The notes under the pieces were generated by a model. That model saw only the letters and a list, made by a program, of their open reading frames with translations, searched no databases and had not been told where the DNA came from. 45,705 nt of DNA, from NCBI GenBank assembly GCA_018384175.1, contig JAHAZB010000043.1, positions 1 to 45,705 of the forward strand, given 5' to 3'. Position 1 is the stretch's first letter; every line of letters starts with the position of its first letter. Below, piece by piece: positions 28,661 to 33,361 of this stretch. A program made the position numbers and the translations under genes. This stretch comes from Eubacteriales bacterium. GTDB taxonomy: Bacteria > Bacillota > Clostridia > UBA1381.

Positions 28661-29671
28661 TCATGCGCCAAGCGCCTCGAAAACAAATTTGTACAAAGCA
28701 TCCCACTCTGCTATTTTGCCCTGCTTGATTGCAAGGTCAAGCTCAGGTACTCTTGATACCCTTTCTGCAAGAAAGTCCTCCGAAAAACGTTTTGCTCCTT
28801 CATAATACTTTTTAGCAATGAATCCCGGCAGTCCAAGACGTTTTTCCACTTCTGCCGACGTTGCACCATCAGCAAACATCAGCTTTGACAAAAGCATCTT
28901 ATCAAATGCAGAATTGAGCAGATACATAACGGTAAATGCCGATTCCTTAGCCGTTTTAAGTTCTGCCAAAATCTGAAAAGCACGGTCGTTTTGTTTTTCC
29001 ATAATACAGTCGGTAAGCTCAAAAACCTGTACATTCACAGACCTCGACACCATCTTCTTTACATCAGTCTCGGTTATTTCCTCCTCGGAAGTAAGCAAAA
29101 GCTTATCAAGCTCATTTTTTAAGTTAATCAATCCATCCTGACAAACCGACACAAAATACTCAATAACATTTTTGCTCATCTTTTTCTTTGCCTTCAAAAC
29201 CTCGCCCTGCACCCATGCAGTAAGCTCATAAGGCTTCAAATACGCAAATTCCACCACAGTACCGACCTTTGACATAGTCTTATATACCGACGAGCGTTTA
29301 TCAACATTGTCCTCTATAAACAGTAGTATACAGTAGTCGGGAAGTCTTTTAAGCTCCTCATTCCAGAAAGCTGCCACGTCCTCCTTCGGCTTTTTGAAAA
29401 TGCCACTATCTCTTACGATAACAAGCTTCTTTTCACTTATCATAGGATAGCTTTCAATCGCATCTGCAATCTCATCTGTCGGTGTTTCCTTACCATCAAT
29501 TGTTATAAGATTAAACTCCTCAAAGCCGTCCTCCGGTATCACTTCACGTATTTTTTCTATATACAAATCACGCATATACAGTTCCTCGCCATAGAAAAGA
29601 TATGCGCCCGATACTCCTTTTTCCTTAAGCTCACGCTTCAATCGCATTACGTCGCTTTCTTTTACTGCCAT
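28661..29671 (-). CDS. holA: DNA polymerase III subunit delta
   Basis: The 336-aa clamp-loader subunit has the typical start with YLFYGEELYMRDLYIEKI, LVIVRDSGIFKK in the first domain and the C-terminal collar helices (AKKYYEGAKRFSED...LDLAIKQG). It opens the beta clamp during replication. It overlaps the end of comEC by 10 nt. Its 3' end abuts the hicA relic. Confidence 0.95.
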   Translation of the reverse strand: MAVKESDVMRLKRELKEKGVSGAYLFYGEELYMRDLYIEKIREVIPEDGFEEFNLITIDGKETPTDEIADAIESYPMISEKKLVIVRDSGIFKKPKEDVAAFWNEELKRLPDYCILLFIEDNVDKRSSVYKTMSKVGTVVEFAYLKPYELTAWVQGEVLKAKKKMSKNVIEYFVSVCQDGLINLKNELDKLLLTSEEEITETDVKKMVSRSVNVQVFELTDCIMEKQNDRAFQILAELKTAKESAFTVMYLLNSAFDKMLLSKLMFADGATSAEVEKRLGLPGFIAKKYYEGAKRFSEDFLAERVSRVPELDLAIKQGKIAEWDALYKFVFEALGA

Positions 29672-31980
29672 TTAAGCACCTCCCCAAACCATGACGCTCC
29701 GATTCTATCTTTATCGCACATAAGTGTTATATCACACATTGTATCTGTTCGTAAAATCTTTGCGCCGTGTTTATAATATCTTTCAACCACTTCTTCGTCA
29801 GGATGTGAATACATATTATTCCTTCCCACGCAAAACACCGCAAAATCAGGACTCGTTTCAGCCACAAACCTCTCTGATGAAGAAGTTTTCGAGCCGTGAT
29901 GTGATACCTTTATTATATCCACCTCACCGATATTGCCGACAAGCCTCTTTTCTATATTTTCACTCATATCGCCACCAAAGAACATAGTTGTATCGTTATA
30001 ATTCATTCTGAGCGCAAGAGAATAATCATTTTCTTCATCAAAGCTGTCATTTTTATAAGGTGAAAGAACTTCTATCAACAACCCCGATTCAAACTCAAGC
30101 TTATCTCCTGCATTAACATACAAGATTTCCGTTTCATTAGCTTCCGCTGCAGCTACCACTCTTTCACGATATTCTCCGCCCTCATTACATCCGGACAGCA
30201 TAACCGTATGAACATCAAGATTTTCTATCGCCGCTATGATACCTTCGACATGGTCTCTGTGGCAATGTGATACAATTGCAAGGTCTATCTTTGAATAGCC
30301 TTTAGCCGTAAGATACGGCAAAAACACTTTCTCTCCGATATTATACTCGCTGTCTGCCATACCACCGCCACCATCTATAAGTATTCTGTCCTTTCCTACT
30401 ATATCTAATATTGCACCATCGCTCTGTCCTACATTTACAAAAGTAAGCTTCATCTTACCAAAATCAGAAAACACGTCAACAGTATAGCCAACAATTATCA
30501 CCGCAAGTCCTATTGTTGCAGCTTTAAACCCTGCTTTCCCCGTATCCCTGTCAACCGCACACTTGATAAGATATACTGCAATAACAAAAACGGCAAAGCC
30601 TACCACCGTTGTCTTTGCCAGTGCCAAATGATAACCCGGCAAAAGTGATACCATCTGCGGCAGCTTTTGCATCAAATCAATTATCACATCAACAACAATC
30701 CCGAAAATACCGGCAGAACCAAATATCTCGTAAAACATCAACGTAACCGGTGATATTATAAATAACAACAGCGATAACGGTGTATAAAGAAAGGTAAATA
30801 TAATACTGTAAAGTGATGCACCGTTAAAGAAGTATGCCGACAGAGGAGTAAGTCCTACTGTACCTATTATCCAGACCGACACCATCGTTCTTATCTTCCT
30901 GTTTTTGATAAAGCCCAGTCTTTCTTCAAGCGGTAGTCTGAACCAATTCAAAATTATTCCTATCGCAACTGACATAACAAAGCCTGAATTATACAGCAAA
31001 AGCGGATTTGCCACAAGACATACCGATACAACCATGGCTGCAATATCGGTATAATGCGAAAAGCCACGCAGTCTGCGATATATTATAATTCCTGCCAATA
31101 TAAGTGCCGACCGCACAAATGACATATAATTTCCATAGAAAAGTGCAAAGCATAAAAGTGCTACTGCAATAATAATATCACGTTTGCGTTTAGGAATTGC
31201 CGCAAACAGCAATTCACATACCGAAAGCAAAAAGAAAATATGCAGAAATGAAGGGTACAAAAACCTCAACGCTGACGTACTTACCAAGATTTTCTGAAAT
31301 TCATCTGTAAACTCCGACTTTTGTCCAAGTAAAACTGCTTTTATCATTCCGGCATCATCGTCGGTATAAAATCTGTCAATCGCAGCTGATATACGGCATT
31401 TTACATATTCGACAGCATAAATGGGCGAAAACAAAAATGCCCTTGCATCAATCAGTTGCAGTTCATCTGCATGGAGAGAAAAACCAATGCCCTTACTCTT
31501 AAAATATCTTTTATAATCAAATTCCGTACTGTTTTCAGGCGAATCAATTTCCTTCAAAAACCCACGAAATGCAACTCTGTTTCCGGTAGAAAGTTCGTTT
31601 TCACACGTGATACGAAGCTTATTCTTCAGTTTAGCTTCTTCGTTATTATATCTAAGTTTTTCTGTTCTCAAAACATATGAATAGTATTCATTATGCTCAT
31701 CAGGCACTTCACTTATAACACCCTCAATTTCTATGTAACGTCCTACATAATTATCAAGTATCGTTGCCGATGGCTCTGTCGCAAACGAAAAACCTATCAC
31801 CCCAACCAATGCACCGACAGCACAAATCAGTCTTCGACCGTCCAATCTTTTGGCAAATACACCCATTGCCGTCAACAGCATCAACACAAACGCAAAAAGA
31901 AAGGATATTCCTGTCCCTGCAATACTGTAAACAAACACAGCAATAAGATACCAACACAAGAAACCAGCAAACACAGACAT
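29662..31980 (-). CDS. comEC: ComEC/Rec2 DNA-uptake channel protein
   Basis: The 772-aa protein has an N-terminal membrane and OB-fold part (about 1-190), a polytopic competence domain (about 200-490) and a C-terminal metallo-beta-lactamase-like domain (VNVGQSDGAILDI, SHCHRDHVEG, KVSHHGSKTS). It conducts single-stranded DNA through the membrane during natural transformation. comEA and other competence genes are not in the window. holA follows with an overlap, a common clostridial arrangement. Confidence 0.95.
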   Translation of the reverse strand: MSVFAGFLCWYLIAVFVYSIAGTGISFLFAFVLMLLTAMGVFAKRLDGRRLICAVGALVGVIGFSFATEPSATILDNYVGRYIEIEGVISEVPDEHNEYYSYVLRTEKLRYNNEEAKLKNKLRITCENELSTGNRVAFRGFLKEIDSPENSTEFDYKRYFKSKGIGFSLHADELQLIDARAFLFSPIYAVEYVKCRISAAIDRFYTDDDAGMIKAVLLGQKSEFTDEFQKILVSTSALRFLYPSFLHIFFLLSVCELLFAAIPKRKRDIIIAVALLCFALFYGNYMSFVRSALILAGIIIYRRLRGFSHYTDIAAMVVSVCLVANPLLLYNSGFVMSVAIGIILNWFRLPLEERLGFIKNRKIRTMVSVWIIGTVGLTPLSAYFFNGASLYSIIFTFLYTPLSLLLFIISPVTLMFYEIFGSAGIFGIVVDVIIDLMQKLPQMVSLLPGYHLALAKTTVVGFAVFVIAVYLIKCAVDRDTGKAGFKAATIGLAVIIVGYTVDVFSDFGKMKLTFVNVGQSDGAILDIVGKDRILIDGGGGMADSEYNIGEKVFLPYLTAKGYSKIDLAIVSHCHRDHVEGIIAAIENLDVHTVMLSGCNEGGEYRERVVAAAEANETEILYVNAGDKLEFESGLLIEVLSPYKNDSFDEENDYSLALRMNYNDTTMFFGGDMSENIEKRLVGNIGEVDIIKVSHHGSKTSSSERFVAETSPDFAVFCVGRNNMYSHPDEEVVERYYKHGAKILRTDTMCDITLMCDKDRIGASWFGEVLKWQ

Positions 31981-31997
31981 TGTTACGCTCCCATATT

Positions 31998-32996
31998 TTA
32001 TATTTTCTTAACCGACTCTCTCTCAATGACTTTTGTGCAATGAACACAAATATTCTCCGTTTCAACGTCTCCGTCAATCATTTTGATAAGAAGCGATACT
32101 GCTTCCTCGCCCATCTTACACTTATCTATTTCCACAGTAGTTAAAGCCGGTGTTGCATATTTTGCAATGACAATATCATCAAGTCCGCATACAGATACAT
32201 CATCAGGCACTTTAATATTATGCTTTGTAAGCTCCTTCATAAAATTAACTGCGATAATATCGGTTGCACACAAAACAGCAGTAATGCCCTTATGTGATAA
32301 TATACTTGAAAAATCACCAAAATCATCCTCGTTATCTACACCATAAATCCATTCTTCGTCTAAAGCTATCCTTGAATCCTCAAGTGCTTTTCTGTAACCG
32401 TTCAGGCTCGCGGCAAAGAACTCCGGTATCGCTTTCATACCTACAAAGCCAATTTTTCTGTGCCCCATAGAAACAAGATATCTAAAAGATGCATAAGATG
32501 CCTCGCTATAATCACAAAATACTGTACTGCTGCCGTTGTCTGTCATATGTGCATCAAGAACAACATAAGGAATATCGTTCTCCTTAAGACATTGAACAGC
32601 CGCCGGTGTCGCACTTAGCAAAAATATAACACCATCAACATCTCTTTGCGATATAGAATGTAGCAGTCTTGAATTCTCAAAGTCCTCAGTATTTGACAAA
32701 ACAAGATTGTATCCATTTTTCATACAAATCTCCATCATACGCTTGATTGCTGTATTATAAAAAAGGTTGTCAAAGGATGTATACTCCGAGCTGACAACTA
32801 TATGAATATTAAAGCTTTTGTTAAGAACAAGCTTTCTTGAACTCAAGCTCGGATTATATCCGGTCTCCTTAATAATTTTCAGGATAGTATTGCGTTTTTC
32901 CTCACTTACTCCCGGACGGTTATTGATAACATAAGAAACCGCCGCAGGTGTAACATTTGCCAATCTTGCAATATCCTTGATTGTGATATTCGCCAT
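31998..32996 (-). CDS. LacI-family transcriptional regulator
   Basis: The 332-aa regulator has the LacI helix-turn-helix (TIKDIARLANVTPAAVSYVINN, with the hinge region after GYNPSLSSRKL) and a periplasmic-binding-protein-like sensor domain ending with ATPALTTVEIDK. It probably senses a sugar or nucleoside. ATG 32996 follows AAGGTGGAG; a GTG four codons earlier is possible. The divergent region contains a strong LacI-type double operator, but the operon it should control is gone (see 33117-33157). Confidence 0.93.
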   Translation of the reverse strand: MANITIKDIARLANVTPAAVSYVINNRPGVSEEKRNTILKIIKETGYNPSLSSRKLVLNKSFNIHIVVSSEYTSFDNLFYNTAIKRMMEICMKNGYNLVLSNTEDFENSRLLHSISQRDVDGVIFLLSATPAAVQCLKENDIPYVVLDAHMTDNGSSTVFCDYSEASYASFRYLVSMGHRKIGFVGMKAIPEFFAASLNGYRKALEDSRIALDEEWIYGVDNEDDFGDFSSILSHKGITAVLCATDIIAVNFMKELTKHNIKVPDDVSVCGLDDIVIAKYATPALTTVEIDKCKMGEEAVSLLIKMIDGDVETENICVHCTKVIERESVKKI

Positions 32997-33026: not shown

Positions 33027-33055
33027 AGTTTATCATTTTGCCTGTAATTTGTCAA
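33027..33055 (-). promoter_or_regulatory. Sigma-A promoter of the LacI gene
   Basis: On the minus strand TTGACA (33055-33050) and TAAACT (33032-33027) are 17 nt apart. Confidence 0.75.
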
Positions 33056-33091: not shown

Positions 33092-33120
33092 TTGACAAAA
33101 TCCGCAAATAAGTGTAATAT
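33092..33120 (+). promoter_or_regulatory. Divergent promoter under LacI-type control
   Basis: TTGACA (33092-33097) and TAATAT (33115-33120) are 17 nt apart. The operator palindrome starts inside the -10 and covers the transcription start. Confidence 0.7.
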
Positions 33121-33157
33121 TTACTTAAACGATTAAGTTAATCGTTTAAGTAAATAT
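33117..33157 (+). promoter_or_regulatory. Perfect 41-bp palindromic LacI-type double operator
   Basis: Two 20-bp arms around a central G are exact reverse complements. Each arm contains a LacI-type site with central CG: TTAAACGATTAA on the left and TTAATCGTTTAA on the right. Position over the start of the divergent promoter fits repression by the adjacent LacI-family protein. Confidence 0.85.
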
Positions 33158-33174
33158 ATGGAGGTGCATATAAA

Positions 33175-33216
33175 ATGCCACTTTATGCTTACTATTATTT
33201 AGCAAAAAAAGATTGA
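33175..33216 (+). pseudogene. 13-codon ORF behind the LacI operator, probably the stub of a lost operon
   Basis: GGAGGT lies 9 nt before an ATG that opens MPLYAYYYLAKKD followed by TGA. The strong translation signal and regulated promoter imply a real gene once stood here. The stop codon TGA is part of the TTGACA of the tRNA promoter, so the junction lies at or before 33213. A genuine 13-aa peptide or leader cannot be excluded. Confidence 0.5.
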
Positions 33217-33241
33217 CACAAACTAAATTTTATAGTAAAAT
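33213..33241 (+). promoter_or_regulatory. Sigma-A promoter of tRNA-Leu
   Basis: A perfect TTGACA (33213-33218) and TAAAAT (33236-33241) are 17 nt apart; the tRNA begins 33 nt later. Confidence 0.85.
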
Positions 33242-33274
33242 ATCTATTGTTCTTTGTTTGAACAATATTTATAT

Positions 33275-33361
33275 GCGGATATGGCGGAATTGGCAGACGC
33301 GCATGGTTCAGGTCCATGTGAAAGCGATTTCATGCAGGTTCAAGTCCTGTTATCCGCACCA
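33275..33361 (+). tRNA. tRNA-Leu (anticodon CAG), CCA encoded
   Basis: The acceptor arm GCGGATA pairs with TATCCGC, followed by A and CCA. The anticodon arm is CATGG-TTCAGGT-CCATG, giving anticodon CAG. A long variable arm (TGAAA/TTTCA) identifies a class II tRNA, and the T arm is CAGG-TTCAAGT-CCTG. All 87 nt, including the CCA end, are present. Confidence 0.95.

Follow-up and report, generated by a model that had tools for sequence, protein, structure and literature searches.

What does a seemingly complete LacI-type switch control when the reading frame behind it is only 13 codons long? In the window, by which we mean the whole 45,705-nt stretch of DNA analysed here, a promoter, a palindrome, a Shine-Dalgarno sequence and this short ORF are flanked on one side by an intact, divergently oriented lacI and on the other by tRNA-Leu(CAG) (Table 1). 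A sequence-only reading had described the promoter, a perfect 41-bp double operator, a strong ribosome binding site, a translation stop after 13 codons, overlap of the tRNA promoter with the stop codon and an intact divergent LacI-family gene, and each of these could be located: the ORF, MPLYAYYYLAKKD*, stops at 33216, the -35 element of the tRNA promoter opens at 33213, one base before the stop codon, and the 332-aa product belongs to the LacI family, with matches to PF00356 (N-terminal HTH, 6.6e-16) and PF13377 (Peripla_BP ligand domain, 6.7e-30). Comparison with relatives points to the regulatory end of a sugar-catabolic operon that has lost its structural genes, leaving an orphan LacI switch, a reading to which we give a probability of about 0.85.

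Table 1. Coordinates of features at the locus, numbered from the first base of the window.
Feature	Position	Strand	Remarks
holA (DNA polymerase III delta)	28661-29671		downstream of comEC
comEC-type competence gene	29662-31980	-	starts 17 nt after lacI stop
lacI-family repressor gene	31998-32996	-	332 aa, intact; Pfam LacI and Peripla_BP_3; closest relative 62% identical
lacI promoter-like site TTGACA-17-TAAACT	33027-33055	-	
promoter TTGACA-17-TAATAT, ascribed to the lost operon	33092-33120	+	TTGACA 33092-33097, 17-nt spacer, TAATAT 33115-33120; same promoter layout in relatives
perfect 41-bp palindrome	33117-33157	strand-neutral	two overlapping central-CG LacI-type sites
Shine-Dalgarno GGAGGTG	33161-33167	+	upstream of ATG 33175
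MPLY (ATG CCA CTT TAT), putative first four codons of lost phosphomannose-isomerase-like gene	33175-33186	+	MPLY/MPMY/MPVY starts in G145, G284, G042, G140, G261
junction, neither side assigned with certainty	33187-33202	+	gene match absent; G003 homology starts at 33203
13-codon ORF MPLYAYYYLAKKD*, apparent fusion of truncated gene and tRNA flank	33175-33216	+	
A-tract and tRNA-Leu promoter TTGACA-17-TAAAAT	33203-33241	+	-35 TTGACA 33213-33218, -10 TAAAAT 33236-33241; conserved with G003; promoter also in G001
tRNA-Leu(CAG)	33275-33361	+	sole copy found in this assembly

The operator palindrome

The palindrome has 20-bp arms around a 1-nt centre with zero mismatches, and is the only one in the window with arms of at least 11 bp. 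The best palindrome arm in Markov-simulated windows (n=30) was 7-10 bp, and an arm of 20 bp is far beyond chance. Within it lie the 16-bp site ACTTAAACGATTAAGT (33123-33138), just downstream of the -10 element, and a second central-CG site, AGTTAATCGTTTAAGT (33136-33151), with one mismatch to the consensus; because their centres are 13 bp apart and the sites overlap, both may not be occupied simultaneously. The first is an even palindrome with central CG near a promoter, as LacI-family operators are defined in a survey of 1303 regulators, most of which have an operator of this kind (PMC4052901). The locus resembles the local LacI-family sugar-utilization regulons of that survey in having the repressor beside its target and an even central-CG operator near the promoter, but differs from them in that the target operon appears to be gone, with promoter, operator and four codons left.

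ACTTAAACGATTAAGT is the same sequence as the operator in G145, one of the genomes with a related repressor (see below), and closely matches those of G284, G140 and G042. Identity between the window and G145 extends over 19 bp (CTTAAACGATTAAGTTAAT), and the conserved flank includes ATTAAGTTAAT, itself an 11-bp palindrome, past which G145 diverges and the window continues as the mirror image of its upstream arm. Such a perfect palindrome would arise in one step through a template switch (quasipalindrome mutation). As this mutation class is described in PMC7202029, an imperfect inverted repeat becomes perfect by extension, and the conserved ATTAAGTTAAT would be its core here; the difference is that the event at this locus is a proposal from the comparison of the window with G145 alone. 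Since the same site lies beside related repressors, LacI probably still binds 33117-33157, where it would control no catabolic gene.

Two further roles were considered and rejected. The palindrome is no terminator or attenuator, as no T-run follows it. A wider LacI regulon was also discarded: operator-like sites elsewhere in the genome are no commoner than reversed-pattern controls, and those whose surroundings were examined lie inside or beside unrelated genes. In another genome (G078:C33, L137 13020-13070), a DegT-like gene, close to a further member of this LacI subfamily, is preceded by a pair of LacI-type operators 32 bp apart.

A gene with an MPxY start near relatives of the repressor

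The closest relatives of LacI that we found are those of G140 (contig G140:C100, 62% identity), G145 (40%), G042 (39%), G284 (37%) and G261 (36%), and all five have nearby a ~600-aa phosphomannose-isomerase-like gene with the start MP[LMV]Y, here called the MPxY gene. In G140, G145, G284 and G042 it is the next gene after lacI, its product starts with MPMY or MPLY, and the order is lacI, a TTGACA-type promoter, a ACTTAAACGATTAAGT-type operator or near variant, a Shine-Dalgarno sequence and ATG-CC. The operator of G261 is a weaker version, and the gene (start MPVY) there is the first of an operon whose far end adjoins lacI. This operon also encodes a D-lyxose isomerase (PF07385), which accompanies the MPxY gene in G140 as well. 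The MPxY protein has no Pfam or NCBIfam match, and its match to solved phosphomannose isomerases is weak (E 8e-5). Family members at L133 3723-5540 and L134 9614-11419 are LacI-linked, and G186 has an MPxY gene, with the start MNIY, without detected lacI or operator.

Across 391 genomes of the class, using cut-offs of E<=1e-62 for the LacI subfamily and E<=1e-120 for the MPxY gene, each was present in six, five of them shared (hypergeometric P about 5e-10, a descriptive value as the genomes are related). Only in the window's genome does LacI occur without the MPxY gene, and no homologue was found at the locus or elsewhere in this draft (G000, 88% complete). The window has ATG-CCA-CTT-TAT, in agreement with the start of the gene in relatives, and so shows the promoter-operator-Shine-Dalgarno-start layout of a LacI/MPxY sugar operon, but not an intact MPxY structural gene. 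The loci with D-lyxose isomerase (G140, G261) and the LacI/MPxY loci of G145, G284 and G042 are alike with the window in LacI subfamily, promoter, operator (weaker in G261) and MPxY start. They differ from it in that their genes are intact and in the orientation of lacI, which is divergent in the window, in tandem with the MPxY gene in four of them, and convergent with it at a distance of ~3.7 kb in G261.

On the tRNA side, DNA homology between the window and G003, a genome of the same genus, begins at 33203 and spans the A-tract and the tRNA promoter, a promoter layout also found in G001; the last codons of the ORF fall in this conserved DNA. The origin of the 16 bases that separate the end of codon 4 (33186) from 33203 is uncertain. 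Codons 5-9 match the MPxY gene of no relative; codon 10 (GCA) matches, perhaps by chance. Because of the MPLY match and of the G003 homology from 33203, we take the ORF to be the truncated start of a gene joined to DNA that flanks the tRNA. Misassembly at the junction is unlikely, 33187-33202 having no shared repeat beyond a 7-A tract.

Probable loss of the operon

The start state would have been a lacI divergent from the operon promoter, the operator, the Shine-Dalgarno sequence and a first gene encoding the ~600-aa phosphomannose-isomerase-like protein. The remainder of the operon would then have been removed, up to a point at most about 16 bp short of the tRNA-Leu(CAG) promoter region, so that translation now enters tRNA-flanking DNA and stops after 13 codons. 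Operon loss, the first option of the sequence-only reading, is well supported, and the first gene of the operon, absent from the genome, can be named from the promoter, operator and MPLY start of relatives. In relatives, LacI/MPxY loci were found elsewhere, and an intact operon between lacI and tRNA-Leu in no genome examined. Against operon loss, the match to the lost gene consists of four codons and the promoter/operator layout, an intact MPxY copy could lie in the part of the genome missing from the draft, and lacI is divergent in none of the five related loci.

The lacI set was probably acquired horizontally and then decayed, since genomes of the same genus lack it in this slot and the closest relative of LacI, in G140, belongs to another family of the same class. 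These two observations, and the failure to see an intact operon at the locus, also fit a variant in which the insert (lacI, promoter and four codons) arrived already truncated, the operon being lost either way. Deletion in place and truncated arrival are inseparable because no genome was found with the intact operon at this locus; nonetheless, it is more parsimonious to assume an insertion and a later deletion that stopped at a tRNA promoter the cell needs than a fragment that ends four codons into a gene and happens to land beside that promoter, and we hold truncated arrival to be a possible but lesser contender.

In G003 and G001, comEC adjoins tRNA-Leu and lacI is absent, the slot being taken by a broken TIM-barrel gene in G001 and by tRNA-Leu fragments and a recombinase gene in G003. 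As same-genus genomes also have no close LacI match, lacI looks like a lineage-specific arrival. A scan of contigs for LacI homologues gave at best 34% over the full length, with no informative locus. The broken gene of G001 (G001:C122, L087 1900-2758) is xylose-isomerase-like. In G003 (G003:C226, L085 6600-7033) the tRNA promoter is separated from the intact tRNA-Leu(CAG) by two broken tRNA-Leu copies, and the recombinase-like gene is just downstream, which suggests repeated integration at tRNA-Leu in that genome.

Retention of lacI and possible re-use of the switch

LacI keeps 92 of 164 conserved positions, compared with 94 of 164 in G140, with no sign in its sequence of relaxed constraint relative to that homologue, and hence either the operon was lost recently or lacI is still needed. 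The lacI stop precedes comEC on the same strand without a terminator (31978-32000), and the window lacks the promoter-like site TTGTCG-17-TACAAT found ahead of comEC in G003; weak promoter-like sites exist within lacI. From this arrangement, lacI, comEC and holA may form one transcript, with lacI as its first gene. If the lacI promoter drives comEC and holA, lacI could not easily be lost, and it has probably been kept either in this way or because operon loss is recent. If promoter capture is the reason, the locus would show how a useless regulator can become hard to lose. It is a clean instance of decay of an operon whose regulator, operator, promoter and ribosome binding site outlast the genes, with an end point set beside a tRNA promoter, and its relatives define a type of LacI-controlled locus with an operator and a ~600-aa phosphomannose-isomerase-like family.

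Transcripts from 33092-33120 might instead cross the 13-codon ORF into tRNA-Leu(CAG), so that part of the expression of the tRNA answers to the sugar ligand of the repressor. No terminator-like site was found between operator and tRNA, both promoter and operator seem intact, LacI shows no decay and the assembly contains one copy of the tRNA; yet the tRNA has its own near-consensus promoter (11/12), conserved in same-genus relatives without lacI, and the layout is expected as a by-product of operon loss. We found no direct literature precedent for the regulon, for LacI-tRNA control or for orphan regulators, and no positive evidence for read-through control, which is possible in principle and in our view improbable. 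Slightly less probable still is the recruitment, after operon loss, of a sugar-responsive LacI promoter to modulate tRNA-Leu(CAG) and, through co-transcription with lacI, comEC and holA; if true, it would link sugar status to the tRNA and to competence and replication genes. The locus clearly exemplifies operon decay rather than a novel form of control.

That the ORF encodes a functional leader or small peptide, as the second option of the sequence-only reading in part proposed, is very hard to credit despite the good Shine-Dalgarno sequence and start codon, as only codons 1-4 are conserved in relatives, where they begin a long gene, codons 5-13 as a block match none and the 3' codons lie within conserved tRNA-upstream DNA. 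We also rejected a riboswitch or any other Rfam element, as there was no Rfam match. The predicted transcript leader (33127-33274) folds better than shuffles (z -3.2), mostly owing to the palindrome and to a hairpin just before the tRNA that is seemingly common to G003.
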